From Rhizobiaceae bacterium (lineage in GTDB: Bacteria > Pseudomonadota > Alphaproteobacteria > Rhizobiales > Rhizobiaceae): DNA of 64,000 bases. Of this stretch, positions 11,701 through 36,072 are shown piece by piece. The notes beneath the pieces were generated by a model, which saw only the letters and a list, made by a program, of their open reading frames with translations, was not told the DNA's origin and did no database searches. A program made the translations under genes and the position numbers. Numbering within the stretch: position 1 is the stretch's first letter; every line of letters begins with the position of its first letter. Location of the stretch: positions 248,001 to 312,000 of the forward strand of contig JABABQ010000067.1 of assembly GCA_014238155.1 (NCBI GenBank), written 5' to 3'.

Positions 11701-14034
11701 CTATTCAATTTCGTCGAGTTCGACCACTTCGTCATTAAATTCCACATGTTCCAGACCCCACAACAGATCGAATTCATGGTCATTCCACATGACATAGCCG
11801 GTACCATCCAAAGTCTTGGCAATTGTATAATCCTCACGGTTGCCGTCGACTTTGAATGTGTCCTCACCATAATGGGCAACAACGTATTGGGTTCCCTCAC
11901 CGTTGAGGATCGTGTCATCTCCAGCACTGCCACCAATCACCGACTCGTCGTCTCCGGTATATTCGTGGCGGGATGCTCCAAATTCCATGTCGATTGCATC
12001 ACTGTCGGTGACCTCGATCAACCAAAGAGAATTGCCCTGTTCGTCTTTAATCAGAGTGCCGGTCGAATATGATTTGATCGTCAGGCCATCCTGGCTGGAA
12101 ACACCGACAAATTTTGAAAAATCAAGCACGTCGTTTTCAACATCAAAATCTTCAACAACATCGGCACCTTCGGAAAAATGGATGCGGTCTGCACCGGATC
12201 CACTCACCAAATAGTCGTTGCCGTCACCACCATCCAACGTATCGTCGCCGCTTCCAGCAGTCAGAAAGTCTGCCCCTGACCCTCCTGCAAGGTGATCATC
12301 GCCATACTCGCCATGCAACTGGTCATCATCGCTGTCACCCACAAGCCAGTCATCGGCGGTCGAACCAAACAGTTTGTCCTGTCCACTACCGCCATGCATT
12401 TCGCCAGCTGTGTTACCCGCAACAATGATATCATCGCCATCCAGACCCATGACCAGCAAAGAGTTATCTTCGACATAAATCGTATCTGCTTCTGCGGTAC
12501 CTGCCGAACGCTCCATGGCAGCGAAGACGTCGTCCTGAATCGTCTCAATGCCCGAATTGCGTTCAATGACGTCAGACAGGCTCGTGGCTTCAATTGCTGC
12601 TATTTCATCGTCGGTCAGGCGACTTTCATACCAGAAAGCATCACCGTCGCGCAGGCGGGTAAACTGATCGACCAACGCCGTGTGGAACAACTCACCCAAC
12701 ATTGAACCGGAGACCGCATCTTCAGCCAGTCCGCCAACAAAAACGTCGATATCATCAACCGAGCCGAACAGGTCTTCGAGTTTCTCCTGCAGTTCCTCAT
12801 CAGACGTGATTTCGGCAAAACTTGTCACCTTGTCGAGCCCATAGGCTTCGCGAACCGAATTATAGTCATCAAGGCCGTGATCGCGGCCTCGTTGGATGTT
12901 TAGCGAGGCCAGGTCGAGTCCACCGGCTCCCGGTGGTCCAAACAGGAAGTTACGAACGTCATCGATGATCTGCGTATCGACTGATTCCGCCTCACTGGTG
13001 GCTGCTCCGCGCAATACGGCATCGATTCCACCTTCAGTAGTCAGCTTGTCGGGACGGAAGAAGGCATCTTTCAACGACAGGTGACCATAGGAACTTTCGC
13101 TACCATCTTCATCCACCCGATGGATTTTGGAAGACAACAATGTGTGCCCAAGGCGGTAGGCAGCCGTTGAAAAAACATTGGCAATCTGCGGATTTATACC
13201 AACTTTGTAGCCATCATAATCGTCGAGCGCCCCTTCTCCCAATAATTTTGGCAAGAATTCGTTATAGGTGATGGCTTGTAATTCAGCTTCGACAATGCGC
13301 CGCGCTTCCTTGTAAAGCGTATCAGCATCCCAATCTGGATTTGATTCCTCAAATTCCGTGACCAGCCGATTGTGCTCGCGAATAAACGTAATATGGATTG
13401 AGGTGAGCACGACATTTTCATTGGCCCGCACGTCCCCGCCGAGGAAAAAACTGTCAGCCGTACTCATAGCATTGGGCAATCCGTCAGTATTGAACGGCAT
13501 CATTTCGCCAGTCGACATTTTCATACGCCCGTCGTCGTCACGCAACGCTGCTTCCCTTATTGAATCTGAACCATAAACGTTGGATGCGTCGATATAGGGT
13601 GTGATGTCGTTGACCTGTTGACGTGGATTATCGGCATCGGTGCCCGTATCCGGGTCGAATTCGGACCTGGTAAATCCAATGGTTGCCGTGCCACTTGCGG
13701 TCGGATCAAAAGATGCATCATCACTTGGGACTGAAATTGGAGCCTTTTCGTCAGCAGATTTGCTGTTTTCCGTTATCGAAATGTCATGATCCAGGAACTG
13801 ACCCCAGGCCCAGAGAAAATCGCTAAAGCCATTGGCATTTGGCAATTCTTCGCTCTGGGCAAATATTTCATTTGAAATCTCACGTGCAGAGGGGCGCGTG
13901 TCACCAGCCAATGTTGAAATTCCGTCGCCATAGTCGGGATCAGCAAATCGCAGCAACGTATCCTTGGTCTGTCCCAATTCGGGATCAAGCGGACTATTGT
14001 TTGCACCGTCAACATTTCTATACGCGTTGGCCAT
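11701..14034 (-). CDS. Animal-type haem peroxidase with RTX calcium-binding repeats
   Basis: A secreted protein of about 777 residues. Residues 1-500 form an animal-type haem peroxidase: YRNVDGANN start, the distal-haem motif WGQFLDHDISI, the proximal-His segment AYRLGHTLLSSKIHR and the LNIQRGRDHGLDDYN block. Residues from about 530 carry GGxGxDxx-type hemolysin repeats (GGSGQDKLFG, GGSGADFLTAGSGDDTLDGGDGND), which bind calcium and usually mean type I secretion. No Sec signal is seen and no T1SS gene is nearby. The start at 14034 (MANAYRNVDG) fits the family; the frame is open to 14121. Such bacterial enzymes may oxidise halides or phenolics (inference). Confidence 0.88.
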   Translation of the reverse strand: MANAYRNVDGANNSPLDPELGQTKDTLLRFADPDYGDGISTLAGDTRPSAREISNEIFAQSEELPNANGFSDFLWAWGQFLDHDISITENSKSADEKAPISVPSDDASFDPTASGTATIGFTRSEFDPDTGTDADNPRQQVNDITPYIDASNVYGSDSIREAALRDDDGRMKMSTGEMMPFNTDGLPNAMSTADSFFLGGDVRANENVVLTSIHITFIREHNRLVTEFEESNPDWDADTLYKEARRIVEAELQAITYNEFLPKLLGEGALDDYDGYKVGINPQIANVFSTAAYRLGHTLLSSKIHRVDEDGSESSYGHLSLKDAFFRPDKLTTEGGIDAVLRGAATSEAESVDTQIIDDVRNFLFGPPGAGGLDLASLNIQRGRDHGLDDYNSVREAYGLDKVTSFAEITSDEELQEKLEDLFGSVDDIDVFVGGLAEDAVSGSMLGELFHTALVDQFTRLRDGDAFWYESRLTDDEIAAIEATSLSDVIERNSGIETIQDDVFAAMERSAGTAEADTIYVEDNSLLVMGLDGDDIIVAGNTAGEMHGGSGQDKLFGSTADDWLVGDSDDDQLHGEYGDDHLAGGSGADFLTAGSGDDTLDGGDGNDYLVSGSGADRIHFSEGADVVEDFDVENDVLDFSKFVGVSSQDGLTIKSYSTGTLIKDEQGNSLWLIEVTDSDAIDMEFGASRHEYTGDDESVIGGSAGDDTILNGEGTQYVVAHYGEDTFKVDGNREDYTIAKTLDGTGYVMWNDHEFDLLWGLEHVEFNDEVVELDEIE

Positions 14035-14260
14035 TGGCTTCAGTCTTTCATTTGTTCCATTTCGAGACAGGTTCGCGTGCCAAACCTTTCTTGCCCTGAA
14101 AAAATGCAATTGCCGGGCCAATTGGCACAGGTGATGTATCTGGGGGTGGCGGTCATTTGTCGGCAGGCTCGCGTCGCCTTCCTCAAATTGTGATCCGACG
14201 TGTTCTGGAAAACGGCTTTAACTGCCACTAATTGGCATTAGACTGTCGAAAACACATGAT

Positions 14261-15526
14261 ATGGACGTCGCCACCATGCAGACCCAACTGAACGCCACCA
14301 CCGTCAAATCGAGCTTTCCCGGTCATTCGGGAGACCTGCTGGCTGCAAGACTGGACATACCAGCCGGCCCGATCAGGGCGACCGCAATATTTGCCCATTG
14401 CTTCACCTGTTCCAAAGACATTCTCGCTGCTAAACGCATCGCGTCCGAATTGGCACGGGTCGGCATTGCTGTGTTGAGGTTTGATTTCACCGGACTTGGT
14501 TCGTCAAAAGGCGAATTTGCCCACACCAATTTCTCTTCCAACGTGCAGGACCTGGTTATTGCCGCCGACTATCTGAGGCAAAATTACAGCGCTCCGAGCC
14601 TGTTGATTGGTCATTCACTTGGTGGCGCCGCCGTCTTGGCGGTCGCTGCTGACATCCCTGAAGTCAAAGGGGTTGTCACGATTGGTGCACCGGCTGATGC
14701 CAAACATGTGCTGCACAATTTCTCAGCCGATATCGATTCCATCGAACGTGACGGCAAAGCCGAGGTCAGCCTTGCGGGGCGGCCGTTCACCATCGAACAA
14801 CAATTTGTCGAAGATGTGCGTGCAAACAATCTGGCGAACCGCATTGCAGCGATGAAACGGCCTCTATTGGTATTGCATTCTCCAATTGATCAGACCGTCG
14901 GCATTGAAAATGCCGGCCAGATCTTTGGTGCCGCAAAACACCCCAAGAGTTTTGTCTCACTGGATCAGGCTGATCACTTGTTGTCGCGCAATGATGATGC
15001 CGCCTATGCAGCTTCGGTAATTGCAGGTTGGGCTAACCGATACCTGCCTGATGATGCCCCGCGATTTGACGAGGCCACCGAGAGTGTGCGTGTGACCGAA
15101 ACGCTGGAAGGTAAATTTCAACAGACCGTGCTGGCCGGAAGGCACAGACTTTTTGCAGATGAACCTGAAAGTTATGGCGGGTTAGACTCAGGCCCATCGC
15201 CCTACGACTACCTATCCATTGCGCTGGGAGCCTGCACGGGAATGACATTGCGCCTTTATGCGGAAAAGAAGGGGCTCGAACTTGGTCGCGTCAGTGTTGA
15301 GGTCTCGCATGCCAAGATACATTCACGCGATTGCGTCGAATGTGATCACGCCCGACAGGATTCAAATACCCGCATAGATAAGTTCAGGCGGGTGATTACC
15401 ATTGAAGGCGGCGCGCCAGCCGGGATGGAAGGCAAGTTGCTGGAAATTGCTGACAAATGCCCTGTTCACAGAACTCTTGAGGCATCATCGGTCGTTGCCA
15501 CAGAAATTTCCGACCAGGGTCAGTGA
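14261..15526 (+). CDS. Alpha/beta hydrolase-OsmC fusion protein
   Basis: A two-domain cytoplasmic protein of 421 residues. The N-terminal 255 residues are an alpha/beta hydrolase with HCFTCSKD, the nucleophile elbow GHSLGG (Ser at about residue 119), LHSPIDQTVG and a final DHLLS histidine. The C-terminal 150 residues are an OsmC-like domain: GGLDSGPSPYDYLSIALGACTGMTLRLYAEKKG with the redox Cys, and a second Cys in DKCPVHRTLE. OsmC domains usually reduce organic hydroperoxides. The fusion is known in several bacteria; its substrate is not. ATG 14276 is another possible start. Its 3' end overlaps the next minus-strand gene by 7 nt. Confidence 0.9.
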   Translation: MDVATMQTQLNATTVKSSFPGHSGDLLAARLDIPAGPIRATAIFAHCFTCSKDILAAKRIASELARVGIAVLRFDFTGLGSSKGEFAHTNFSSNVQDLVIAADYLRQNYSAPSLLIGHSLGGAAVLAVAADIPEVKGVVTIGAPADAKHVLHNFSADIDSIERDGKAEVSLAGRPFTIEQQFVEDVRANNLANRIAAMKRPLLVLHSPIDQTVGIENAGQIFGAAKHPKSFVSLDQADHLLSRNDDAAYAASVIAGWANRYLPDDAPRFDEATESVRVTETLEGKFQQTVLAGRHRLFADEPESYGGLDSGPSPYDYLSIALGACTGMTLRLYAEKKGLELGRVSVEVSHAKIHSRDCVECDHARQDSNTRIDKFRRVITIEGGAPAGMEGKLLEIADKCPVHRTLEASSVVATEISDQGQ

Positions 15527-15747
15527 TCGCCACCGGGTAATTTATCCCAAAGCCATTGCACTCCGCCGAGCAGCGCACAGGCAACAAACAGCATTGTCAG
15601 CAGACCAAATTCGGACCAAGTGGACCGAAACAGCGGCCAGCCGCGAAGCTGGGCCTGTATCAAGCCAAGCCCCTGCTGCCAGAACCAATACAAACCCATT
15701 GCCAGCAGGGCAAAAACTATCAATCCGAAAATATGGCGCAATGTCAT
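15520..15747 (-). CDS. Small membrane protein, last gene of the Rieske operon
   Basis: A protein of 75 residues with two predicted membrane helices (HIFGLIVFALLAMGLYWFW near the start and FGLLTMLFVACALLGGVQWLW near the end) joined by a short polar loop. No family is recognised. It begins 4 nt after the stop of the Cys/His-motif protein and is the last of six co-oriented genes. It may be a small subunit or assembly factor of the membrane complex proposed for this operon (inference). Confidence 0.65.
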   Translation of the reverse strand: MTLRHIFGLIVFALLAMGLYWFWQQGLGLIQAQLRGWPLFRSTWSEFGLLTMLFVACALLGGVQWLWDKLPGGDH

Positions 15748-15751
15748 ATCC

Positions 15752-16498
15752 CTACTGTACCTTTATGCTGTCGACATCGATCTTGAAGACATGCAGATCA
15801 CCGCGTTTTTCGATCGCACCTTCGGCGCTCAACAAGACCGCCGTTAGGCCATAAAGCTGCTCGCCGAGAGCATTGCCTTGGGAATCGGCCAGCATGAAGA
15901 AGGAGGCGCCGTCGACCTTCCCGCTGGCAACGAATACAGCCGGAATGCCGCCAACCAGGCAAAGATTAGCGCAGGCCTTGTGGGCCAGACCATTGCCGGG
16001 ACGCATGGCACCAGCATAACATTTGCCATCACAAATTTCGCCACTGATTTTCCAGCGACCTAACTGGGTAATTTCGACCTTTTGCGGTTGGGAATCAGTC
16101 ATCGGCTTTATCCGTTGGCCAACCTGAAGCATGTCGAGATCGCCCCTTTTCAACAAAGCGCCACGGGCCTCGACCACCTGCCCTTCCAACGCCATGGCCT
16201 GATCCATGACACCGCGCTTTCCCGGACCTGACAACATGATGGAATGGCCATTGGGATATTTGCCACCCGCTGCAATGTGGATCACCGGATAAGGGTTGGA
16301 GGACATAACACCGACGATTTTCTGACGACCCATAAATCTGCCACCACCCGGGTCATCCTGGCTAATAACGAATGAAAATGCAGTCCCAGCAAACAGGCCC
16401 ACGATAAACAGGCTGATTGCGATCAAAAACCCGCGCAATCCAACTGGCAGTTTCTTACCCCAACCAATGAAAAACCCGTCATAGGATTGACCACTCAT
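15752..16498 (-). CDS. Membrane-anchored protein with CxxxC...HxxCxxxC motif
   Basis: A protein of 248 residues with one N-terminal membrane helix (about residues 22-45), so the rest is probably periplasmic. Residues 156-180 form a striking motif: Cys156 and Cys160, an RPGNG turn, then AHKACANLC with His173, Cys176 and Cys180, followed by LVGGIPAVFV. The spacing suggests a metal, haem or iron-sulfur site, or two disulfides. I do not recognise a characterised family. The start overlaps the stop of the Rieske/ferric-reductase-like gene by 4 nt (ATGA), so translation is probably coupled. It is likely a partner in electron transfer (inference). Confidence 0.75.
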   Translation of the reverse strand: MSGQSYDGFFIGWGKKLPVGLRGFLIAISLFIVGLFAGTAFSFVISQDDPGGGRFMGRQKIVGVMSSNPYPVIHIAAGGKYPNGHSIMLSGPGKRGVMDQAMALEGQVVEARGALLKRGDLDMLQVGQRIKPMTDSQPQKVEITQLGRWKISGEICDGKCYAGAMRPGNGLAHKACANLCLVGGIPAVFVASGKVDGASFFMLADSQGNALGEQLYGLTAVLLSAEGAIEKRGDLHVFKIDVDSIKVQ

Positions 16499-17559
16499 GT
16501 CCCGTCTCCCTCAGTCGACGGTACGACAAGTGGTTCAACATAAGTGCCAGCCGGGTTGGCCACCGGATCAATAAAAACCTGACCATCTTGCATCGACAGA
16601 TTGAATGTCGGCACCTTTTCAGTAAATGGCGGCGGCGAGCGTCCATCTTCCGGTCGATACTGGTAGCCGTGCCAGGGGCACGTTACACATCCGTAAATCA
16701 AACGTCCCTCACCGAGCGGGCCATTTTGGTGAGCGCACAGATTGGAAAGTGCAGAGATCTTGCCGTTATATTTAAACACTGCTGCTCGTTCACCATCCGG
16801 CAGCACCACAACCCGGCCCCGCTTTTCTTCCAGTTCGGCAACTTCGCAGACGTGAATATGACCTGATGAATGAAACTCGCCGACATCTCGCGCCACCTCC
16901 ATTCGTCCTGAGACAATATGCAATGCGGTGACAACAAGAGCGCCACCCAAAAAGACAAATCCGAAAAGCCCGCTATCTGAACTCTGGAAATAACCGAAAG
17001 CTACATGGGCAACCAGCGAGGCATAGGCAAAATAGATGCCCATATGCAACGTCTTCCAGATTCTGGGAGTCAGGAAACTAAGCCAGAAATCATGACTGGT
17101 GGTTGCCAGTACGATCAAAATGATCAGTGAAAAAATTCCAAACAATTCAAACGGAAAACCCAGCAATTGATCAAAGCTTACATTGCTGTTGAGCAGTGCC
17201 ACGAAACGATCTGTAGGCGAAAAAACATAGTACCAGTTCACCACGTAGGTAGCATGGATCAGCGCGACCATACAGGTGAGAACACCAAAGTGGCGCCTGT
17301 TGTATAGCAATGGCAGGAAGCGTCTGTCCAAACGCGCGAGCGGCCCAATGCACAAGATGAATGTCAGCATTAAAAAGGCACAGGATCCAAAGGCGCGCAT
17401 CCGCAAAATCGGAGTTTCGACCGGCCGCGTAACATCGTGAAGCGAAGGCGCCAGTTTCAAAAATATCAGCAGATAGGCAATCGTCGCGATCACAAGTATC
17501 GCGTCATAATAATACTTATTCTTGTTCCACAGAACCGGACGATATGAATCGCTCATCAA
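16495..17559 (-). CDS. Ferric-reductase-like membrane protein with C-terminal Rieske domain
   Basis: A 354-residue fusion. Residues 20-215 hold about six membrane helices resembling the ferric reductase/MsrQ haem-b membrane domain, with candidate haem-ligand His at 90, 102, 172 and 185. Residues 230-325 are a Rieske [2Fe-2S] domain with CAH (Cys275, His277) and CPWH (Cys294, His297). Electrons could pass between the iron-sulfur cluster and haem across the membrane. The NADPH/FAD domain of ferric reductases is absent. It overlaps both neighbours by 4 nt. Its operon partner is a Rieske-glutamate-synthase-like protein, so a shared redox pathway is likely, with substrate unknown. Confidence 0.82.
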   Translation of the reverse strand: MMSDSYRPVLWNKNKYYYDAILVIATIAYLLIFLKLAPSLHDVTRPVETPILRMRAFGSCAFLMLTFILCIGPLARLDRRFLPLLYNRRHFGVLTCMVALIHATYVVNWYYVFSPTDRFVALLNSNVSFDQLLGFPFELFGIFSLIILIVLATTSHDFWLSFLTPRIWKTLHMGIYFAYASLVAHVAFGYFQSSDSGLFGFVFLGGALVVTALHIVSGRMEVARDVGEFHSSGHIHVCEVAELEEKRGRVVVLPDGERAAVFKYNGKISALSNLCAHQNGPLGEGRLIYGCVTCPWHGYQYRPEDGRSPPPFTEKVPTFNLSMQDGQVFIDPVANPAGTYVEPLVVPSTEGDGT

Positions 17560-17759
17560 CCACTCCCTGCCGATGGGCCTTTCGGCGTCGGCGCCGGCGA
17601 CGGCGACGACAACTGCGATGCAGGTGGCGCAATTTGCACTGGTGGCTCAAGCTTTGTTGGGTCCTGACGGATGAAAACAGCGGCAATAATGATGGCTGGG
17701 ATTACAACCATCAACACTCTCCAAATCGCGTTGTGGGACTTTCGTAAACTTTGCTTCAT
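17556..17759 (-). CDS. Small single-pass membrane protein with Pro-rich tail
   Basis: A protein of 67 residues starting MKQSLRKSHNAIWR. One membrane helix follows (VLMVVIPAIIIAAVFI), then a Pro/Ala/Ser-rich tail (PPVQIAPPASQLSSPSP). No family is recognised. The start at 17759 forms an ATGA overlap with the stop of the preceding gene, and the stop overlaps the next start in the same way. That supports this start over the longer frame to 17831. It is likely an accessory subunit of the operon's membrane proteins (inference). Confidence 0.65.
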   Translation of the reverse strand: MKQSLRKSHNAIWRVLMVVIPAIIIAAVFIRQDPTKLEPPVQIAPPASQLSSPSPAPTPKGPSAGSG

Positions 17760-18007
17760 GCCCCGTCTCCATCCGATTTGTGGGCAGGGCAGCCATTTTT
17801 GGACAATTGTTCCAATGACCACCATCGCCACAAGACCAGAGGCCAGATGACCAGGACACCTGGAATCAACAGAGGTCTAAATGCATAGGCGTCATGGGCG
17901 GCTGGATCGACCCTGTCGATGCCGACAAACAGGAACAGAACACAGACCAGTGCGCCAATTGCGCCCCAAATTTCCACGAAACGGATAATCAGTTCAGCCA
18001 GCGACAA
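17756..18007 (-). CDS. Small membrane protein with two helices
   Basis: A protein of 83 residues starting MSLAELIIRFVEIWGAIGALVCVLFLFVGIDRV, with a second helix LLIPGVLVIWPLVLWRWW and a polar, Asp-rich end. No family is recognised with certainty. It starts 39 nt after the stop of the Rieske-glutamate-synthase-like gene and overlaps the next gene by 4 nt, so it is coupled into the operon. It may be a membrane anchor for the soluble Rieske-flavin protein (inference). Confidence 0.65.
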   Translation of the reverse strand: MSLAELIIRFVEIWGAIGALVCVLFLFVGIDRVDPAAHDAYAFRPLLIPGVLVIWPLVLWRWWSLEQLSKNGCPAHKSDGDGA

Positions 18008-18046
18008 ATCGTACCTCGATATTGAATTTGCTTGGTGACCGCCTGA

Positions 18047-19657
18047 TCAACCCAAACCACCATAAGCCACGCCAGACAATTCGGCCATCTCCTTTTTCCA
18101 GGTCGTCAAGTCGTCCTGATTGAACCCCGTCAGGTGATCATGGCCGCAGGCCCGCGCCATCACCTGCATCAGTTCCACAGAAGCCGCAAAGAAGTTTTGT
18201 AACTGCTCGGCAGATTTCTCCACCACCAAACGGCTGACAAGGTGTGGTTTCTGGCTGGCAATACCCACCGGACAATTATTGGTGTGGCAGGCCCGCATTG
18301 CTATGCAGCCAATGGCTTGCATAGCCGAGTTAGATACCGCAATCGCATCTGCCCCCAAGGCCATCGCCTTGATGAAATCTGCTGGTTTTCTCAATCCACC
18401 GGTGATCACCAGCGAAATATCGGAACGGCCATTGGATTCAAGGTGCATGCGTGCCCGGGCAAGTGCCGGAATGGTCGGGACCGAGATATTGTCCCTGAAC
18501 AGGATGGGCGCTGCGCCCGTGCCACCACCGCGGCCATCGAGAATGATGTAATCAACTCCGACCTCAAGTGCAGCATCAATATCTTTTTCGATATGTTGGG
18601 CAGACAGCTTGTAACCAACCGGGATACCGCCGGTGCGATCACGCACTTCGTCAGCAAATTCCTTGAGTTGGGACACTTTAGTCCAGTCGGGAAAACGGGC
18701 CGGTGAAATCGCCGACTGGCCCGGTTCAAGATCACGCACTTCGGCAATCTTGCCCTTCACTTTGGCTCCCGGCAGATGCCCGCCGGTGCCGGTTTTTGCA
18801 CCCTGACCGCCCTTGAAGTGAAACGCCTGTACCTTATCCAGCAGTTCCCATTTGAAGCCAAATCGGGCAGATGCAAGTTCGTAGAAATATCGGGAATTCT
18901 CCGCCTGCTCTTCCGGCAGCATACCTCCTTCACCGGAGCAAATCCCGGTTCCAGCCAGTTCCGCGCCACGAGCCAAAGCGATTTTAGCCGGTTCAGACAA
19001 CGCGCCAAAGCTCATGTCTGACACAAACAGTGGGATGTCCAGCTTCAGCGGTTTTTGAGCATTTGGGCCGATTACCACATCCGTGCCCACAGGATCTTCA
19101 TCAAGTCGTGGCGGTTTGTGAAGTTGAGCCGTCAGGATTTGAATATCATCCCAACTTGGCAATTGATCGCGTGGCACTCCCATCGATTCCACTTTGCCGT
19201 GATGGCCGGTTCGTTTCAGTCCGTCTCGGGCATATTGCTGGATCAAACCGTTTAGTGGTTCTTCTTCGGTGCCGTGGGATGTGTCGGCATAAACACCAAG
19301 ATAGGCATCCCGGTTGAATGGCTGGGGGTTGTCCAGTGCCCAGGCAGCGATTTCATCTGCATCCACCAGCACGTCGCCATCTTCAATCCACGAATTGAAC
19401 TTCGGCAAGACTTCGTTGTTCGCATATTCAGAAACGCCGGAATCAATCCGGTAGTCCCAGAAATGGACACCGCACATCAGGTTTTTACCGCGGATGAAGC
19501 CGTCGGACATCAGCGCGCCGCGATGCAGGCATCGACCGTAAAAGACAGATACTTCGCCATCAATTGGCACGATCACCAGATCAACTTCACCAACCAGTCC
19601 ATGGGCTGGTTTTCTGTTTTTGAGCTTGTCGTGTTTGGCAATGCTGACTTTGTCCAT
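18047..19657 (-). CDS. Rieske domain-glutamate synthase-like FMN protein
   Basis: A fusion of 536 residues. The first 105 residues are a Rieske [2Fe-2S] domain with CLH (Cys43, His45) and CGVH (Cys62, His65). Residues 150-530 are the FMN-binding domain of glutamate synthase: DMSFGALSEPAKIALARGAEL, GICSGEGGMLPEE, KGGQGAKTGTGGHLPG, LDGRGGGTGAAP, and a C-x5-C-x4-C [3Fe-4S] motif at Cys451, 457 and 462. The amidotransferase domain of GltB is missing, so it should not use glutamine directly. No N-terminal signal is seen. It heads the six-gene operon. Its real substrate is unknown to me. Confidence 0.85.
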   Translation of the reverse strand: MDKVSIAKHDKLKNRKPAHGLVGEVDLVIVPIDGEVSVFYGRCLHRGALMSDGFIRGKNLMCGVHFWDYRIDSGVSEYANNEVLPKFNSWIEDGDVLVDADEIAAWALDNPQPFNRDAYLGVYADTSHGTEEEPLNGLIQQYARDGLKRTGHHGKVESMGVPRDQLPSWDDIQILTAQLHKPPRLDEDPVGTDVVIGPNAQKPLKLDIPLFVSDMSFGALSEPAKIALARGAELAGTGICSGEGGMLPEEQAENSRYFYELASARFGFKWELLDKVQAFHFKGGQGAKTGTGGHLPGAKVKGKIAEVRDLEPGQSAISPARFPDWTKVSQLKEFADEVRDRTGGIPVGYKLSAQHIEKDIDAALEVGVDYIILDGRGGGTGAAPILFRDNISVPTIPALARARMHLESNGRSDISLVITGGLRKPADFIKAMALGADAIAVSNSAMQAIGCIAMRACHTNNCPVGIASQKPHLVSRLVVEKSAEQLQNFFAASVELMQVMARACGHDHLTGFNQDDLTTWKKEMAELSGVAYGGLG

Positions 19658-19672
19658 AGATGCTGATTCCCG

Positions 19673-19686
19673 GCGGCAATTGCCGC
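19673..19686. promoter_or_regulatory. Perfect 14-bp palindrome upstream of the Rieske operon
   Basis: GCGGCAATTGCCGC lies 16-29 nt before the start codon of the Rieske-glutamate-synthase-like gene. It is a perfect palindrome and could be a repressor site or a hairpin near the ribosome binding site. No regulator gene is adjacent. Confidence 0.4.
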
Positions 19687-27945: not shown

Positions 27946-28101
27946 TCAGATCGGCGTGTCTTCGCTTTCCTTATCGAGAATACGCACCGACGCCCCTTCA
28001 AGATCATCATACTGACCAGACCGCAAACTCCAGAAAAAGGCCGCAAGTCCAAGAGCGCCCAATGCCAATGCGAGTGGAATGAGGATCAATAAATGGCTCA
28101 C
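27946..28101 (-). CDS. ccoS: cbb3 oxidase assembly protein CcoS
   Basis: A small protein of 51 residues (MSHLLILIPLALALGALGLAAFFWSLRSGQYDDLEGASVRIL, spanning residues 1-42). It has one membrane helix and the CcoS hallmark WSLRSGQYDDLEG. It helps haem and copper insertion into the cbb3 oxidase. The GTG start at 28101 overlaps the ccoI stop as GTGA, giving translational coupling. It is the last gene of the ccoNOQPGHIS operon. Confidence 0.92.
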   Translation of the reverse strand: MSHLLILIPLALALGALGLAAFFWSLRSGQYDDLEGASVRILDKESEDTPI

Positions 28102-30434
28102 GCTGCAACCCTCCCGGCTGGTGTCTGATCCGTGGACGACGCGGCGTCGAGACGCAGCGATGTAGCGTTTGTTTGTGGCCGCTGAATTATTCGGTCCTTG
28201 TAGAAGTTTAACCGCATGCTGTTGGCAATCACCACAATAGACGATGTCGACATGGCGATGGCGGCAATCAGCGGTGTTATTTGCCCGGCAATTGCCAGCG
28301 GCACTGCGATGCAATTGTAAAAAATCGCAAAAGCGAAATTCTGACGCACGAGCTGACCGGTCTTCAATGCGATGGCTCTGGCCGTCAAAACCGCATCAAG
28401 CCCTGGACGGGTAAAAACAAAGTCCGATGCAAGCCTGCCCACATCTGATGCTGAAGCCGGTGCCATCGATACATGGGCCGCAGCCAATGCCGGCGCGTCA
28501 TTCAATCCATCACCAACCATCAAAACTTGAGTGCCCGACTGCTGCAGGACTTGTATATGGTGAATTTTTTCAGCGGGTGTCATTCCGCAAGATTGTTTTT
28601 CGATCCCCAAAACCTTGGCAACCGCAGCGACTGTTGAAGAGTGATCTCCAGAAACTATCTCTACTTCCAGACCGCTTGCCGTGAGGCTTTTGACGGTTTG
28701 GCCGGCGCCTGGACGCAGGCGGTCTTCCAGGACGAAATTGCAGATCACTTCATCTTGCATGGCGAAGGCTACACCTGACGATCTTGCATTTGCCGCATCT
28801 GCTGCAGCAATTTCAGCCACCCAAACGGCCCGGCCAAGCCGCACCAACTTGCCCCTGTAACGCGCTTCAACACCAAATCCAGGAACTTCTTCAACACCGG
28901 ACAGGGCAACACTATGGGCGACGTCCAGATGCGCAGCAACAGCCCGCGCTGCCGGATGTGACGAATGACCCGCAAGTGACTTCGCTAATCTTTCATTGAT
29001 GGTATCCAACCCATCCGAGTCCGCAACCAATGGTTCTCCCATGGTCAGAGTTCCCGTTTTATCAAAAGCAATTGTGGACACTTCTGCCAACCGTTCAAAG
29101 GCTGTTCCGTCTCGCATCATAATGCCCCGACGCATCAGTTGATGGGCGCCAATGACATGCACAACTGGTACTGCCAGGCCCAATGCACAGGGGCAGGTAA
29201 TGATCAAAACCGAAATCGCTACATAGATCGAACTGTGCCAATCACCTCCCGTATAGATCATCCAGCCAACAAAGGTGAGCAGAGCCAGCACATGCACAGC
29301 CGGGGCGTAGATTTGCGCCATGCGGTCGGCAATCCCCACATACTGACCCCTCCCCTGTTCTGCCGCATCCATCATTGCGGAGATTTCAGCAAGGAAGGAA
29401 TTGCTGGCATCGGTGGTGGCGGTGACGTCGATGGAACCGGTTAGGATCAGCACTCCTGCCTCAAGCCGGTCTCCTGGTTGGCAGGTAATTGTGTTGGATT
29501 CTCCGGTCACCAGCGCCCGATCAATATCCGAAGAACCGCAGACCACAATTCCATCAACCGGCAGTCGTTCACCCGGATTGACCCGCAACCGCATGCCTTC
29601 GCTGATCTCTGCCAGATCGATGTAGTGTGGGTTTTTGCCCTCACCGATCAAGACGCCGCCTTTCGATGTGAGTTGCACCAAACGATCAACGGCGCCACGA
29701 GCGCGTTGTCGCATCAGATGATCCAGATACCGGCCAATCAGCAGGAAAAATAACAGGGTGACCGCAGCGTCGAAATAAGCATCTGATCCATTTGTGACAC
29801 TCTCAAATATGCTCATCGCCAAAGCGAGCACTACGGCCAGCGAAATTGGCACATCCATATTCAACCTGCGAACCGTGAGAGCTTTCAAGGCCGAGGTAAA
29901 AAATGGCTGCCCGGCATAGGCGACAGCTGGCACCGCAATAAGCCCGGATATCAGGTGGAATAGCTTTGCAGTCTCGGCATCCGCACCGGACCATACAGAT
30001 ACAGATAACAGCATGATGTTAGCCGCCGCAAAGCCTGCCACGGCAAGAGCCTTCAACAATCTGCCGCCCGCCTCGTCGACAAGCTGAGAAGTTGCTTCCC
30101 CGGGGAAATGCAAATTGGCTTCGAAGCCAAGACGTTTCAGGAAATTCATAATTTCTGAACCCGACCCTTGATCTGCGTCCCAGACCACAGAAACGGTGCG
30201 GTTTGTCAGATTAGCCCGTACTGAGCAAACCTGCGGCATCGACAGCAAACCGCGCTCAATCGTGCCAATACAAGCGGCGCAATGCATGTCAGCAACGATA
30301 AAATCGGACTGATGCTGCATCCCTTCCAAAGGCCGCGAGGCAGCCCTCAAACGCTCCTCATCCAACCGCGAAGCAAAACTCAGGCTGCCTGACGCAGCAC
30401 CTTTTAAATCTGTTGAAGTCTCGCAACAACTCAT
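28098..30434 (-). CDS. ccoI: Copper-transporting P1B-type ATPase CcoI/FixI
   Basis: A P-type ATPase of 778 residues that exports copper for assembly of the cbb3 oxidase. It has an N-terminal heavy-metal domain with MHCAAC (Cys52, Cys55), the membrane CPC site in TCPCALGLAVP, the phosphorylation motif DKTGTLT, an HP motif (GHSSHPAARAV) and GDGLNDAPALAAA. About eight membrane segments are visible. The N-terminal Cys-rich start (MSCCETS) is common in FixI proteins. It overlaps ccoH and ccoS by 4 nt each, in the order typical for FixGHIS. Confidence 0.96.
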   Translation of the reverse strand: MSCCETSTDLKGAASGSLSFASRLDEERLRAASRPLEGMQHQSDFIVADMHCAACIGTIERGLLSMPQVCSVRANLTNRTVSVVWDADQGSGSEIMNFLKRLGFEANLHFPGEATSQLVDEAGGRLLKALAVAGFAAANIMLLSVSVWSGADAETAKLFHLISGLIAVPAVAYAGQPFFTSALKALTVRRLNMDVPISLAVVLALAMSIFESVTNGSDAYFDAAVTLLFFLLIGRYLDHLMRQRARGAVDRLVQLTSKGGVLIGEGKNPHYIDLAEISEGMRLRVNPGERLPVDGIVVCGSSDIDRALVTGESNTITCQPGDRLEAGVLILTGSIDVTATTDASNSFLAEISAMMDAAEQGRGQYVGIADRMAQIYAPAVHVLALLTFVGWMIYTGGDWHSSIYVAISVLIITCPCALGLAVPVVHVIGAHQLMRRGIMMRDGTAFERLAEVSTIAFDKTGTLTMGEPLVADSDGLDTINERLAKSLAGHSSHPAARAVAAHLDVAHSVALSGVEEVPGFGVEARYRGKLVRLGRAVWVAEIAAADAANARSSGVAFAMQDEVICNFVLEDRLRPGAGQTVKSLTASGLEVEIVSGDHSSTVAAVAKVLGIEKQSCGMTPAEKIHHIQVLQQSGTQVLMVGDGLNDAPALAAAHVSMAPASASDVGRLASDFVFTRPGLDAVLTARAIALKTGQLVRQNFAFAIFYNCIAVPLAIAGQITPLIAAIAMSTSSIVVIANSMRLNFYKDRIIQRPQTNATSLRLDAASSTDQTPAGRVAA

Positions 30435-30952
30435 TCAATCTTACCTGTTCCCAATTTGACGAACAGTCGCAAGTCACGTCGGTATGATTGTTCACTCGTG
30501 CTGGCATCGAAACGCAGCATCCACATGCCATCCTCCAATTCAATCCGAGTTCCATAAGCGCCTGACTTCCCGACTTGCAGTTGAATTTGCCGGTCTTGCT
30601 GCTCAAATGCGGGGCGACCAAGCGACACGTTGACGACTTCTGGAGTGAGCCGTAATCCGTCGCGATCAAGCAGGCTGAATTTCAGCTGTTGGTTTTGATA
30701 GGTGACGTTGGACGTCCATCCAAGTTTCGCCTGAACTTTGGCCACGGCCAATTCAGCGTTGAATTTCTGGCTGGCAACATAGGAATTCTTGACCACCAGT
30801 CCGGTCCAGCTGCTTGACGCAAACGTCGCCATGGTCACGTTGACTGCGATGATCACACCGAAGAATGCGACCATGCAGACCAGCATGTGCATGCCGGTAA
30901 AACGAAATTCCTGTTTGGTCTTGTTGGACGTCATTGGGTTTATCTTACTCAT
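30431..30952 (-). CDS. ccoH: FixH/CcoH family protein
   Basis: A single-pass membrane protein of 173 residues. The helix at about 14-40 (TGMHMLVCMVAFFGVIIAVNVTMA) is followed by GLVVKNSYVASQKFN, the FixH signature, and a periplasmic beta-rich domain (GRPAFEQQDRQIQLQ, DGMWMLRFDAS). CcoH is needed for assembly or stability of the cbb3 oxidase. Start and stop each overlap the neighbouring reading frames by 4 nt. The position between ccoG and ccoI matches other alphaproteobacteria. Confidence 0.94.
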   Translation of the reverse strand: MSKINPMTSNKTKQEFRFTGMHMLVCMVAFFGVIIAVNVTMATFASSSWTGLVVKNSYVASQKFNAELAVAKVQAKLGWTSNVTYQNQQLKFSLLDRDGLRLTPEVVNVSLGRPAFEQQDRQIQLQVGKSGAYGTRIELEDGMWMLRFDASTSEQSYRRDLRLFVKLGTGKIE

Positions 30953-32553
30953 TTGTCAAACTTCGCTGGTGCTTCGAATTTGGCGGCTGCGGTGGTGTTG
31001 TCGCTGCCGCCTATCGCCAGAATATTGAAGGAGAATTCAGTTTCCGACCCACCAATTCTATCCTTCGGAACACGAACAAATATACGACTGGCCTGCAGTT
31101 TGTCTGCTCTGGCATCTATGCGCAGCGATCGACTCTCAGGTGCAGCAGAACCAGACGTTTTCATAGTTGCTCCAGACAGTCCGTCAATCGTGATCAGGAA
31201 GCTTCTGTTATTGCCCGTCATATTCAAAATTTTGATCTCGTAGCCATTGCGGATGGCGCCATCGCTAAGAACCGTGAATACCGGATTCCTGTCGTGCAGG
31301 AGGTTGACCTTCAACGTGTCGCGCACCGCCAGCGCCCAAAGCAGTGCCATACCGATTGCCGCGTATATCGCAGTATAAACTATCGTGCGAGGACGCAGCA
31401 AGGAACGCAGGTTGGTGTGTCTTACTTTGTCAACCAGCCTGCCATTTGAACCGCGAATATTTTGCGGACTTATGGTCACCGAATCAATTCCATTTGTCAG
31501 CCAGGTATCTCCACCGGTCGCAAGTTGCATATTTGAACCGTATTCCTCCAATGTGGCATAGGCAATCAGACCCTTTTCCAGCCCCAACTTGCTCATCACC
31601 CCATCACAGGCGTCGATGCACAATGCACAGGTAATGCATTCCATCTGTTGACCATCGCGAATATCGATGCCCATCGGGCAGACTGCCACACATGCGTTGC
31701 AGTCGACGCAGTCACCAATATGCTCGCCCGCCGCCCGCATGCGCTTGGCATGCCGGTCACGCGGTTCACCGCGCCAGTCATTATAAGTTACCGTCAACGA
31801 ATGCTCGTCCAGCATGGCTGCCTGAATGCGTGGCCAGGGGCACATATAGGTGCACACCTGTTCGCGCATGAAACCACCAAAAACATAGGTAGTTGCGGTA
31901 AGTATCCCTACGGTGACGTAAGCGACGAAAGCCGCCTGCCCGGTGAAGAATTCAACCGCTAGTGTTGGTGCATCGGCAAAATAGAATATCCAGGCCCCAC
32001 CTGTGGCAAAGCCAATTAATATCCAGACAATGTGTTTGAACGTGCGTTTGGTGATTTTCGAAGTTGACCAGGGCGCGGCGTCCAATTTTATGCGGGCATT
32101 GCGATCACCTTCAAAATAACGCTCCACAACCAGATAAAGATCAACCCACACTGTTTGTGGACACGCATAGCCACACCAGGCGCGTCCAAGAGTTGAGGTC
32201 ACAAGAAACAGACCAATGCCAGCCATGACCAACATGCCAGCGACAAAGAAAAACTCGTGCGGCCAGATTTCAACAAAGAAGAAGTAGAACCGCCGGTTCG
32301 CCAAATCGACCAGCACGGCTTGATCGGGGGCGTCGGGCCCACGATACCAGCGCAACCATGGGGTCAGATAGTAAATCCCCAGCGTAATGCCCATGATCCA
32401 CCACTTCAGGCCCCGGAACCAGCCAACCGCACGTTTGGGGTGGATCTTCTTGCGTGCTTCGTAGAGAACCCGCTTCTCCTTTGAATTGACAGCCTCGGCA
32501 TCGAAATTCTCGATGCCGGGCTTTGTCGAATCGGGCTTTTCTGTCGTCAGCAT
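30949..32553 (-). CDS. ccoG: Cytochrome c oxidase accessory protein CcoG/FixG
   Basis: A membrane protein of 534 residues with two [4Fe-4S] motifs, CVDCNACVAVCPMGIDIRDG and CITCALCIDACDGVM, near residue 270. Five or so membrane helices and a periplasmic immunoglobulin-like C-terminus complete it. Other family motifs are AWCGYACPQTVW and CTYMCPWPRIQ. FixG/RdxA proteins are thought to reduce copper for CcoN assembly. It is 3 nt downstream of ccoP and overlaps ccoH. Confidence 0.96.
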   Translation of the reverse strand: MLTTEKPDSTKPGIENFDAEAVNSKEKRVLYEARKKIHPKRAVGWFRGLKWWIMGITLGIYYLTPWLRWYRGPDAPDQAVLVDLANRRFYFFFVEIWPHEFFFVAGMLVMAGIGLFLVTSTLGRAWCGYACPQTVWVDLYLVVERYFEGDRNARIKLDAAPWSTSKITKRTFKHIVWILIGFATGGAWIFYFADAPTLAVEFFTGQAAFVAYVTVGILTATTYVFGGFMREQVCTYMCPWPRIQAAMLDEHSLTVTYNDWRGEPRDRHAKRMRAAGEHIGDCVDCNACVAVCPMGIDIRDGQQMECITCALCIDACDGVMSKLGLEKGLIAYATLEEYGSNMQLATGGDTWLTNGIDSVTISPQNIRGSNGRLVDKVRHTNLRSLLRPRTIVYTAIYAAIGMALLWALAVRDTLKVNLLHDRNPVFTVLSDGAIRNGYEIKILNMTGNNRSFLITIDGLSGATMKTSGSAAPESRSLRIDARADKLQASRIFVRVPKDRIGGSETEFSFNILAIGGSDNTTAAAKFEAPAKFDK

Positions 32554-32556
32554 CGC

Positions 32557-33447
32557 TTATTCAGCTTTCGCTTTTTCCCCGCCGCCAAGACCATGAACGT
32601 AAATTGCCAGTTGCTTGACGCCGGCCTCTGTCAGCTTGTCACCCCACGGTGGCATAACACCGTGTTTGGGATTGTTGATCTGGGATCGCAGCGAGGCACG
32701 GTCACTACCGTAAAGAACAATGGAATCGGCCAGATTCGGACCGCCAAACTCGCGATCGCCTTTACCGTTGTCTCCGTGACATGAAGCACAATTATCTGCA
32801 TATAAATGCCGCCCGGCATCGGCTAGCGCCGGATCGAATTCCATGTTGGATAATTGCAGCACATATTCAACAACCGCTTTAATCTCTGCGACTTCAAGCA
32901 GCCCGTCCGCACCAAATGACGGCATCAGTGAATCCCGTGTGTCGTCGTCGACATCATTGCGGATACCATGTTTGATTGAGGTGTAGATCGACTGAAGATC
33001 GCCGCCCCACAGCCAGTCATCATCGTTGAGGTTTGGATATCCAGGACTGCCGGAAGCTCCTGATCCATGACATTGGGTACAATAGACTTTGAACAAAGAC
33101 GAGCCACCAGCCGCCGCAAATCGACTTAGATCCGCATCGGCTCGAATTGCCTCCAGGTCGGAATCGGCAAGTTTTTCAACCGTTGCCCGACGACCTTCTT
33201 CAACTGCTTTCAATTGCTCAGACAAGATGCCCCGGTTGGTGGTTCCTGAAATACCCATGGTTGAGGCATTTAGCAGCGGGATCGCCGGATACCAGATTAT
33301 GTATCCTATCGAGAACACGATTGTCGCGTAGAACGTCCACAGCCACCAGCGTGGCAGCGGGTTGTTGAGTTCCTTGATGCCGTCCCATTCATGGCCCGTC
33401 GTTTCAATGCCACTGGATTCGTCAATTTCTTTTTCAGACATCGTCAT
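32557..33447 (-). CDS. ccoP: cbb3 oxidase dihaem cytochrome c subunit CcoP
   Basis: A protein of 296 residues with a membrane helix near residues 36-56 (WWLWTFYATIVFSIGYIIWYP) and two c-type haem motifs, CTQCHGSGASG and CASCHGDNG, in the periplasmic part. It passes electrons from the bc1 complex towards CcoN. The N-terminal ELNNPLPRWW is a CcoP hallmark. The start (MTMSEKEID) overlaps the end of ccoQ by 14 nt; Met3 would overlap by 8. Confidence 0.96.
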   Translation of the reverse strand: MTMSEKEIDESSGIETTGHEWDGIKELNNPLPRWWLWTFYATIVFSIGYIIWYPAIPLLNASTMGISGTTNRGILSEQLKAVEEGRRATVEKLADSDLEAIRADADLSRFAAAGGSSLFKVYCTQCHGSGASGSPGYPNLNDDDWLWGGDLQSIYTSIKHGIRNDVDDDTRDSLMPSFGADGLLEVAEIKAVVEYVLQLSNMEFDPALADAGRHLYADNCASCHGDNGKGDREFGGPNLADSIVLYGSDRASLRSQINNPKHGVMPPWGDKLTEAGVKQLAIYVHGLGGGEKAKAE

Positions 33448-33595
33448 TGTCCTCTTTCAGTGGAATTTGCGCGATCTCTTCAGCCTTCTTTTTGGAGCCA
33501 GGGCGAAACGTGAAGACTATTACGCCAACAAACAGCACAAACAGGTAAAGCAGCCCCCAGCTATCGGCGAACTGACGAAATGCAGAATAATCCAT
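33434..33595 (-). CDS. ccoQ: cbb3 oxidase subunit CcoQ
   Basis: A small subunit of 53 residues (MDYSAFRQFADSWGLLYLFVLFVGVIVFTFRPG at its start). It has one membrane helix, then a basic and finally acidic tail (GSKKKAEEIAQIPLKED). CcoQ stabilises the interaction of CcoP with CcoNO. It lies between ccoO and ccoP and overlaps the latter, the expected arrangement. It is too short to stand out as an open frame, but position and sequence make it clear. Confidence 0.93.
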   Translation of the reverse strand: MDYSAFRQFADSWGLLYLFVLFVGVIVFTFRPGSKKKAEEIAQIPLKEDNDDV

Positions 33596-33604
33596 GATCT
33601 CACC

Positions 33605-34336
33605 TCACCGCAGGTTTTCGTTTTGCTGATAGGCCTTCAGGTCAACCAAAGTGCCGAGCATTTGAAGATAGGCAACAAGTGCGTCCATCTCGGACACTAC
33701 TTTGGGATTGCCGTCGAAATCGCGAATACTGATTTTGGCGTAGCGCTCCTCCAGACCGGATGTATCCGCGTCAGGATCGGCCTGAGCCTCAAGATCGGCC
33801 AGAGCGTTCGTCACCATGGCTTCGCTGTAAGGCACACCGACCGCAGAATTGGCAGACAAATGGGCGGAAATGTTTTTCTTGGCCAATGTTGTTTTCGCCA
33901 GGAACGAATATTTCGGCATGATCGATTCAGGCACCACACTTTGTGGATCAATCAGATGCTGCACATGCCAGTCGTCTGAATATCGCCCACCAACTCTTGC
34001 CAGATCAGGGCCGGTTCGCTTTGAGCCCCACTGGAATGGGTGGTCATACATGCTTTCAGCGGCAAGAGAATAGTGACCGTAGCGTTCGACCTCATCCCGA
34101 AACGGACGGATCATCTGACTGTGGCACAGATAGCACCCTTCGCGAATATAGATATCACGACCGGCAAGCTCCAGCGGTGTATAGGGCCGCATGCCCTCGA
34201 CCTTTTCGATGGTGTTTTTGAGGTAGAACAGCGGCGCAATCTCAACGATACCTCCGATCATAACAGCGACCAGGGAACCAACGAAGAGCAAGGTCAAATT
34301 ACGTTCAATTTTTCCATGTTTGTCCAGAATTGACAT
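33605..34336 (-). CDS. ccoO: cbb3 oxidase monohaem cytochrome c subunit CcoO
   Basis: A protein of 243 residues with an N-terminal membrane anchor ([22 protein letters not shown]) and the haem c motif CYLCH in [17 protein letters not shown], followed by [16 protein letters not shown] and the axial Met region ([10 protein letters not shown]). These are standard CcoO/FixO features. It is 12 nt downstream of ccoN and 9 nt upstream of ccoQ. Confidence 0.97.
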
Positions 34337-34348
34337 AATCCGTCCCCC

Positions 34349-35977
34349 TTACTGTGCTGCTGCAATGGCGGTTGGAGCTGATATGCCACCCATCAACTTT
34401 TCCTGACGCACATCACCCCGGATAGTGCGCCAGACATTATAGACCATGACCAGCGCACCGGTGAGGTAAAGGAGACCTCCAACCGTCCGCATGACATACT
34501 CTGGATGAATCGCCGATACCGTCTCAACGAAGGAATTTACAAGGAATCCCTGATCATCATATTCGCGCCACATCAAACCTTGCGTGATGCCGGCGACCCA
34601 CATGACGGCGGCGTAGATCACGATGCCGAGTGTTGCCAGCCACAAATGCCAGTTGACCAATTGCAGTGAGTACAATCGCTCACGATTCCAAAGTTTCGGC
34701 ACCAGATAATACAGCGCTCCAAAAGTCACCATTCCGTTCCATCCCAATGCTCCTGAATGAACATGTCCAATTGTCCAATCTGTATAATGGGACAGCGAAT
34801 TGACCGCCTTGATCGACATCATCGGACCTTCAAATGTCGACATGCCATAAAATGCCAATGACATGACCATCATTCGCAGCACCGGATCGGTGCGCAACTT
34901 GTCCCAGGCGCCTTGCAAGGTCATCAGACCATTGATCATGCCACCCCAAGAAGGCATCCACAGCATGATTGAGAACACCATGCCCAGGGTCTGAGCCCAA
35001 TCCGGCAGAGCCGTATAGTGGAGGTGGTGCGGGCCGGCCCAGATATACAGGAAGATAAGCGCCCAGAAATGGATGATCGAAAGCCGGTAGGAATAGACCG
35101 GACGATTGGCCTGTTTCGGCACGAAATAATACATCATGCCAAGGAAGCCTGCGGTGAGAAAGAAGCCCACCGCGTTATGACCGTACCACCACTGGGTCAG
35201 TGCATCCTGAACACCGGAAAAAGCCGAATAGCTCTTCACTCCGAGGAAGGAAACCGGCACCGCGGCATTGTTGACCAGATGCAACATGGCAACGGTGATA
35301 ATGAAGGAAAGATAGAACCAGTTGGCGACATAGATGTGCGGTTCCTTGCGCCGCACAATCGTGCCGAGATAGACAATCAGATAAGCCACCCAGACGATGG
35401 TCAGCCAGAGATCAACGTACCATTCTGGTTCGGCATATTCTTTCGACTGGGTGATACCCAACAAATAACCGGTTGCCGCCATGGCGATGAACAGCTGATA
35501 GCCCCAGAAAACGAACCACACGAGATTGCCACCGAATAACCGTGCCCGGCAGGTGCGCTGAACCACGTAGAAACTGGTGCAAATCAGGGCATTGCCACCA
35601 AACGCAAATATCACGGCCGATGTATGCAGCGGGCGCAGTCGTCCGAAATTGAACCATGGCTCGATATTGAATATCGGCCAGGCCAATTGTGCAGCAATCA
35701 CGACACCGACAAGAAATCCTGTAACCCCCCAGAATATGGTGGCGATGGTGCCGTAACGAATCACGTCGTCCATATAACCGGAAGCGTCCTTTGGTGGCAG
35801 CGTCTGCCCGGCCGGTGCAAACTCGACCCGGCGCATCAAAACAATCGTTGTCGCTGCCAGAATTGCGACCAATATCCAAGCATGTATACGGAACAATTCG
35901 TCCTGTGCAAAAGCAGCGCCCAATACCGCGAGCAGCGTTGCCGCGCCGAGAATTATCGGCTCAGTTCCGTTTCGCAT
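34349..35977 (-). CDS. ccoN: cbb3 oxidase catalytic subunit CcoN
   Basis: The haem-copper oxygen-reducing subunit, 542 residues with about twelve membrane helices. Ligand motifs visible include [15 protein letters not shown] (low-spin haem His), [18 protein letters not shown] (CuB His), [14 protein letters not shown] (two CuB His) and [17 protein letters not shown] (haem His pair). It is the first gene of the ccoNOQPGHIS operon. A perfect FNR/FixK box about 100 nt upstream suggests induction at low oxygen by the FnrL encoded at 36694. Confidence 0.97.
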
Positions 35978-36072
35978 GCTGTTCCCTTTCCTGTAGTGAT
36001 TCCAGTCGGCAGTACGGCCCTCAGATTCGTGCCAACCAAAAGCATAAATCTCTCATTTGACCCCGAATAACC

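Follow-up and report, generated by a model that had tools for sequence, protein, structure and literature searches.

We find that six consecutive, closely packed minus-strand open reading frames (ORFs), g1 to g6, within positions 15520-19657 of a 64,000-nucleotide stretch of a Rhizobiaceae bacterium genome (assembly GCA_014238155.1, contig JABABQ010000067.1, positions 248,001 to 312,000; hereafter the window) form two units, i.e., a membrane core, g2 to g6, and a pluggable soluble partner, here g1 (Table 1). The core is built around g4, a membrane protein that joins a ferric-reductase domain to a Rieske domain, and g1 carries a Rieske domain of its own on the FMN/[3Fe-4S] domain of glutamate synthase. 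The block is real, conserved and functionally coherent, yet the six genes do not form a fixed system: the core is joined by exchangeable partners, most of them Rieske-tagged. We propose, at about even confidence, that g2 to g6 constitute an MsrQ/YedZ-related inner-membrane electron conduit, which is fed by g1, delivers electrons on the periplasmic side and likely serves reductive repair or detoxification in the envelope. An earlier note on the same DNA, the original prediction, had described a packed six-gene cluster with two Rieske domains and a flavin domain; ORF calling and Pfam confirm all of these, the Rieske domains lying in g1 and g4, whereas its block end at 19686 lies 29 nt upstream of the actual g1 start at 19657.

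Conservation of the core was followed in two sets (L and G numbers below denote individual loci and genomes). The first consists of 289 alphaproteobacterial genomes drawn evenly across the class; the second, of 80 loci, is the best 80 of 589 tblastn-confirmed stretches ranked by similarity to the window g4, some of which may hold Rieske proteins only. The share of g1 among the 80 loci is likely above that in the whole family, and the class sample is the fairer basis. In the class sample, g4 is found in 15 of 289 genomes, each of which has g2 alongside (the window and 14 fetched regions) and 14 of which have a full-length g5, the exception being G216. A whole-phylum sample of 349 genomes yielded g4 in 7, all of the same class or order. 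The combination of g2, g4 and g5 is kept in 75 of the 80 loci, and the five without the full set (L073, L085, L096, L134 and L149) have a locus end near the core. Carriers among the 80 include Labrenzia/Roseibium, roseobacters, Pseudovibrio, Rhizobium and many metagenome-assembled genomes, one of which (L117) bears the name Nitrosovibrio. The block therefore recurs in many Alphaproteobacteria, and its genes are often neighbours. Where the original prediction saw one dedicated six-gene membrane electron-transfer system, the dedicated electron-transfer system is supported by the recurring block and by the strand of g1, which is that of g4 in 37 of 38 measurable loci at a distance of 3-2601 bases; the steady unit, however, is g2 to g6, with g1 interchangeable.

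Both domains of g4, Ferric_reduct (PF01794) and Rieske (PF00355), exceed their Pfam cut-offs. Residue numbers of g4 count from an alternative start, TTG 17559, which would yield 354 aa, although the Met at ATG 17556 is invariant across a 56-sequence alignment. R88, H102, H172, H185 and the Rieske ligands are invariant in 56 g4 sequences, with H185 and H214 placed just downstream of the PF01794 span; Arg88 precedes H102 by 14 residues, and the H172-H185 spacing is 13. In a YedZ-like protein of the window genome, R88, H102 and H185 have counterparts in register, and H172 stands opposite a Gln. A simple hydropathy scan scored five transmembrane (TM) segments in g4; because the ferric-reductase domain has six helices, a sixth is inferred at about 172-190, under the scan threshold. 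With six helices, the N-terminus and the C-terminal Rieske domain would both be cytoplasmic, as would the basic loop 75-90, which fits this N-in, Rieske-in topology.

These features relate g4 to MsrQ/YedZ, a ferric-reductase-type membrane protein in which Arg replaces the first haem His and whose TM3/TM5 His residues are present in g4. The two differ in several respects: g4 scores 30.9-32.6 bits against the MsrQ model, for which the curated cut-off is 130, it carries its own Rieske domain, and g2, g3, g5 and g6 have no Pfam or NCBIfam family match at E up to 1. MsrQ hands electrons to MsrP in the periplasm; a potential donor proposed for it is the cytosolic flavin reductase Fre (PMC5676040). 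No molybdoenzyme is found among the six genes, the remainder of the genome not having been searched for MsrP. According to the account of ferric-reductase domains (FRDs) in PMC3591440, an Arg in place of the first haem His is a YedZ/STEAP rather than a NOX signature, and Rieske is among the known FRD extensions. Its architecture M4, a Rieske/FMN extension of bacterial FRDs, resembles g4; the part of that account concerned gives the architecture, with no operon, partner enzymes or function seen there. Two NOX-type assignments were rejected. NOX and long ferric reductases have four haem His residues and FAD/NADPH-binding domains, whereas g4 has Arg88 at the first haem position, a Rieske domain and no Pfam match to a FAD/NADPH domain. 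A model with two full NOX-like haems (H90/H102 and H172/H185) failed the register check, in which Arg88 was found 14 residues before H102.

The third constant component, g5, has a candidate redox site of its own. C160, H173, C176 and C180 are invariant in 57 g5 sequences and in 16 more diverse ones. The motif had originally been read as CxxxC...HxxCxxxC; these four residues bear it out, but the first Cys, C156, although conserved in at least 90% of the nearer 57, is Val or Ile in 7 of the 16 diverse sequences. We count a single anchor helix in g5, since the second of its two hydropathy segments (175-193) falls in the Cys/His region. The g5-type domain also occurs alone, in short proteins (about 145 aa) that look secreted. 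L025, L028, L031 and L032 each encode a short protein, 138-173 aa in length, with the g5-type Cys-His-Cys-Cys domain and, after it, another Cys-containing protein, 173-190 aa in length; NCBIfam returned nothing informative for the two pairs tested (L028 and L031).

Such stand-alone domains could be metallochaperones, and together with the ferric-reductase fold of g4 they would fit an alternative in which the core is a Rieske-dependent quinone or O2/superoxide reductase of NOX- or ferric-reductase-like type and g5 only aids assembly or haem/metal insertion. We regard this alternative as very unlikely, given that g4 lacks a FAD/NADPH domain, that its Arg88 carries the published YedZ/STEAP signature (PMC3591440), and that g5 accompanies g4 in nearly every g4-bearing class genome.

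The small membrane proteins are likewise recurrent. A g2 relative is present in 79 of the 80 loci, and in at least 34 of these 79 it continues into a g3-like tail as a single ORF, a count that leaves 14 of the 79 ORFs, those without the anchor motif, unclassified; a stricter regular expression gave 5 of 79. A separate g3-like ORF directly follows g2 in 29 of 75 loci. Fusions and adjacent separate ORFs together support g2 and g3 acting together. After g5, an ORF of 55-106 aa with a predicted TM helix is found in 71 of 75 loci, though by BLAST the g6 sequence itself matches only that of L072 among the 80. The hydropathy scan gave two TM segments for g2, one for g3 and two for g6.

The soluble protein g1 is not a standard glutamate synthase subunit. 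The [3Fe-4S] cysteines claimed for it are there: C451, C457 and C462 (C-x5-C-x4-C), aligned to GltB structures, are invariant in a 15-sequence alignment that includes the window. Of the original description as a GltB central domain without its amidotransferase, the second part holds, there being no Pfam match to an amidotransferase domain, while the domain itself is the FMN/synthase domain PF01645, the central domain PF04898 matching below its cut-off only. Glutamate synthases in the PDB align with g1 only across GltB residues about 856-1190, and the operon contains no GltD gene. A separate 1594-aa frame elsewhere in the window genome gives a full-length glutamate synthase match, and this, with the missing amidotransferase, rules out the standard-subunit assignment. 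The Rieske motif is found in 39 of 40 g1-like ORFs of the 80 loci. The exception, at L106 (2919-4463, plus strand), adjoins the core; its g1 match begins at residue 145, and no Rieske motif was found in it. The window genome has ten Rieske matches in total.

The closest paralogues of g1 have the same catalytic part behind a different module. In G022, G202, G211 and G287 of the class sample, the next-best g1 matches start near residue 120-130, and two CDGSH motifs replace the Rieske domain. The Vibrio protein at L172, with tandem CDGSH (PF09360) on the GltS FMN part, is 57% identical to g1 overall and 67.7% across residues 130-534; with L160-L163, where CDGSH was read by eye, it makes up the GltS-FMN-domain proteins with N-terminal tandem CDGSH. 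This architecture has been published as type 5 CISD, i.e., tandem CDGSH [2Fe-2S] domains fused to the GltS FMN domain (PMC3174974). In both, an N-terminal [2Fe-2S] module precedes the GltS FMN/[3Fe-4S] part; they differ in that the published protein has two CDGSH domains (3 Cys 1 His) and g1 a Rieske domain (2 Cys 2 His), and in the link of g1 to a membrane core. The architecture of g1 is thus the Rieske counterpart of type 5 CISD as described in that source. Since the FMN/[3Fe-4S] part is joined to two unrelated [2Fe-2S] modules, we argue that the module serves to pass electrons to a partner or to receive them from one.

Full-length g1 is present in 39 of the 80 loci, and a second Rieske-tagged enzyme, Rieske-POX, in 29, with both in 26. 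Rieske-POX fuses a Rieske domain to a thiamine diphosphate (ThDP) enzyme; the NCBIfam models that match this enzyme best, without reaching their cut-offs, are those for pyruvate oxidase and pyruvate dehydrogenase. No Rieske-POX was found in the window genome. A third type, a fusion of Rieske to an NADPH-dependent FMN reductase domain (FMN_red), lies directly after g4 at the usual place of g5 (L070, 6257-7384, plus strand); in G216 it begins 12 nt after g4, and g5 is missing. In the class sample, full-length Rieske-GltB is carried by 8 of 289 genomes, 7 of which also carry g4 (Fisher p=1.6e-9, uncorrected for kinship); in these seven, g1 is adjacent to the core (G000, G096 and G252), about 17 kb off (G009 and G143) or on another contig (G123 and G227). 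No g4 match was found in the remaining one, G074, a genome that is 67% complete.

Other genes accompany the core at some loci. A short-chain dehydrogenase/reductase (SDR) lies directly upstream of it in three annotated Rhizobium plasmids and also in some of the 80 loci. Na+/H+-exchanger-like genes were detected by BLAST in 18 of the 80 loci, Pfam having been run on one. At L058, L059, L074, L039-L041, L125 and L136, a recurrent set of a ThDP enzyme, OpgC and a TPR protein stands beside the core with no adjacent g1, in most cases along with a CoA-transferase III. L103, L121 and L129 share a related membrane-protein-like ORF of 504-582 aa directly upstream of the core, on the g2 side, which by eye we take to be a TctA-type transporter.

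As read in the sequence, the parts, conserved ligands, operon, partner swaps and co-occurrence fit an electron path of which we infer the cofactors, direction of flow, Rieske-to-Rieske transfer, substrate, terminal acceptor and envelope role. In the window genome, the cytosolic g1 would be the feeder, its FMN domain oxidising an amino acid or related metabolite, for which glutamate-like substrates are obvious candidates. Electrons would pass from FMN to the [3Fe-4S] cluster, to the Rieske cluster of g1 and on to the cytoplasmic Rieske cluster of g4, the point of entry, which by analogy with the Fre route may stand in for the flavin reductase input. From there they would reach a haem b bound by H102/H185 within the six helices of the ferric-reductase domain, with H172 possibly binding a second haem, and exit into or via g5 at the periplasmic face. 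The predicted 3-Cys/1-His site of g5 (metal or Fe-S) would face the periplasm, and g2/g3 and g6 would be structural subunits. In relatives, the same g4 socket is apparently also served by Rieske-tagged pyruvate-oxidase-like and FMN-reductase-like enzymes. A more specific form of the proposal, which we put forward tentatively and think rather unlikely, is that a YedZ-type wire with a Rieske input accepts cytosolic enzymes with matching Rieske plugs (GltB, pyruvate-oxidase and FMN-reductase types), so that NAD(P)H-free metabolite oxidation powers periplasmic reduction via g5 as a new 3-Cys/1-His redox protein.

Several observations weigh against the proposed conduit. Neither full-length g1 nor Rieske-POX is present in 38 of the 80 loci, and only 9 of these 38 genomes have a full-length g1 elsewhere; two more have partial matches (one being the L106 gene), and 27 lack g1 at E 1e-100. 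Rieske-POX is found in 9 of the 38, one of these being L148, where a shorter copy inside the locus fell below the cut. In the class sample, 8 of the 15 g4-bearing genomes are without full-length g1, and Rieske-POX, found in 12 of 289 genomes (E 1e-150), accompanies g4 in 6 and occurs without it in the other 6. Given its absence from many core carriers, g1 is not an obligatory donor. In addition, a g5 profile searched against solved structures gave a single match, at E 0.81, and the direction of electron flow is not something that sequence can give.

The partners also occur together away from the core. In G613, G614, G617, G622 and G639, g1 and Rieske-POX adjoin each other apart from the core; in G622, each has one internal stop codon. 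On haloarchaeal plasmids of Salinirubellus, Halorarius and Halorubrum, a full-length Rieske-GltB (60-61%) and a Rieske-POX (57-58%) share one plasmid at distances of about 1.4, 4 and 17 kb, annotated as 'glutamate synthase-related protein' and 'thiamine pyrophosphate-binding protein'; a Haloferax plasmid has Rieske-POX only. Among plasmid records outside Rhizobium, none covers at least 80% of g4 and none matches g5, archaeal chromosomes not having been searched, so that on these haloarchaeal plasmids the pair stands without g4 or g5, a further point against the conduit. The Rieske-GltB/Rieske-POX region of L167, L168 and L170, all haloarchaeal plasmids, has annotations that include merA and, in some, DUF3179, DsrE, pirin, peroxiredoxin or TauE/SafE. 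Such separate pairs, like the g4 genomes without full-length g1, would be expected if g1 and the core were two independent systems that often travel together with no direct electron transfer between them. We consider this unlikely: g1 shares the strand of g4 in all but one measurable locus and lies 3-2601 bases from it, nearly all g1 carriers of the class sample have g4, and Rieske domains on both partners make direct coupling plausible.

Alternatively, electrons might run in reverse, the core taking them from the quinol pool or the periplasm and passing them through the Rieske clusters to g1 for a reductive glutamate-synthase-like reaction, e.g., amination with free ammonia or an amine. K282 and R308 are conserved in g1, as judged from alignments to GltS structures and 15 sequences, at positions that we take to be 2-oxoglutarate ligands of GltS, and a GltB domain that stands alone with a ferredoxin-like module is consistent with an enzyme that accepts electrons; the third presumed ligand, a Gln, is H294 in g1, which speaks against reverse flow. 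So does the pairing of the core with pyruvate-oxidase-like enzymes (by NCBIfam matches below cut-off) and an FMN-reductase-type domain, as pyruvate oxidases are normally electron donors, and so does the separate full-length glutamate synthase match of the window genome. On the other side, characterised glutamate synthases are reductive (PMC8097209), and MsrQ, according to one source, draws on the quinone pool (PMC8315932), which would also make a cytosolic enzyme unneeded and counts against a conduit fed by g1. On balance, reverse flow appears improbable to us.

Evidence on the physiological role comes from neighbouring genes. At two of the three annotated Rhizobium loci, sigma-70-family and NrsF/DUF1109 genes lie about 1 and 8 kb from the core, and in ECF16 systems such anti-sigma factors have been tied to responses to hypochlorous acid (HOCl) and reactive oxygen species and to Msr genes (PMC8315932). 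By analogy, these genes and the kinship with MsrQ suggest that the core may act in envelope redox repair. Two results count against such a role: inspection by eye of the gene clusters common to at least five loci found no general stress-type neighbour, and the peroxidase and OsmC-hydrolase genes beside the window operon recur only in L072 among the 80 loci. The former (11701-14121, minus strand) encodes an animal-type haem peroxidase (An_peroxidase, 517.8 bits) with RTX calcium-binding repeats, and the latter (14261-15526, plus strand), convergent with g6, an alpha/beta-hydrolase fused to an OsmC domain. Both were dropped as members of the system, L072 being a close relative. A hypochlorite-resistance island was likewise dropped as the main claim, as no such neighbour family is widely common; the redox-stress annotations at Rhizobium and haloarchaeal loci are a weak hint. 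Farther off, ORFs at 28098-36000 (minus strand) look by eye like what we presume to be a cbb3 oxidase cluster with accessory genes.

The genes of the window locus are set out in Table 1. The gap between g1 and g2 is 39 nt and that between g5 and g6 is 4 nt; g2/g3 and g4/g5 overlap by 4 nt, and g3/g4 by 1 nt, given a g4 start at the conserved ATG 17556. Promoter- and terminator-like sites at the locus were no more numerous than in shuffled sequence.

Table 1. Genes, domains and ligand sites of the g1 to g6 locus (positions within the window)
Feature	Position	Strand	Description
g1	19657-18047	-	536 aa; soluble; Rieske + FMN/[3Fe-4S] glutamate-synthase-domain protein without amidotransferase
g1 Rieske domain, N-terminal	19433..19648	-	aa 4-75; C43-x-H45 ... 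C62-x2-H65; PF00355 43.3 bits, cut-off 20.3
g1 FMN/synthase domain PF01645	18143..19069	-	aa 197-505; 305.2 bits, cut-off 20.4; includes C451, C457, C462
g2	18007-17756	-	83 aa; small membrane protein; 2 predicted TM helices; conserved FRpLLiPg motif
g3	17759-17556	-	67 aa; single-TM; basic N-terminus with His; Pro-rich tail
g4	17556-16495	-	353 aa from ATG 17556; YedZ/MsrQ-type ferric-reductase-domain protein with C-terminal Rieske
g4 ferric-reductase TM domain	17014..17388	-	PF01794 46.9 bits, aa 58-182; invariant R88, H102, H172 (also H90, H156)
g4 Rieske domain, C-terminal	16639..16857	-	PF00355 49.2 bits, aa 235-307; C275-x-H277 ... C294-x2-H297; predicted cytoplasmic
g5	16498-15752	-	248 aa; one N-terminal TM helix, then predicted periplasmic region
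g5 ligand set C160-x12-H173-x2-C176-x3-C180	15959..16021	-	3 Cys + 1 His; alignments of 57 + 16 sequences
g6	15747-15520	-	75 aa; small protein; 2 predicted TM helices

No description of this gene set was found in the open-access PMC literature, a search that leaves out most subscription papers. The original statement that no such system had been described therefore stands for the gene combination and its function within that literature; it does not extend to the individual architectures, FRD-Rieske fusions (PMC3591440) and type 5 CISD (PMC3174974) having been published. If the proposed conduit is correct, it would provide a widespread alphaproteobacterial route by which dehydrogenases independent of NAD(P)H send reducing power across the inner membrane. 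FRD-Rieske fusions would gain a function, as would stand-alone proteins that join a GltS domain to a [2Fe-2S] module, and g5 would be a new conserved cysteine/histidine protein in envelope redox biology. As the named carriers include genera with cultured strains (Roseibium/Labrenzia, Pseudovibrio and Rhizobium), the system is directly testable.

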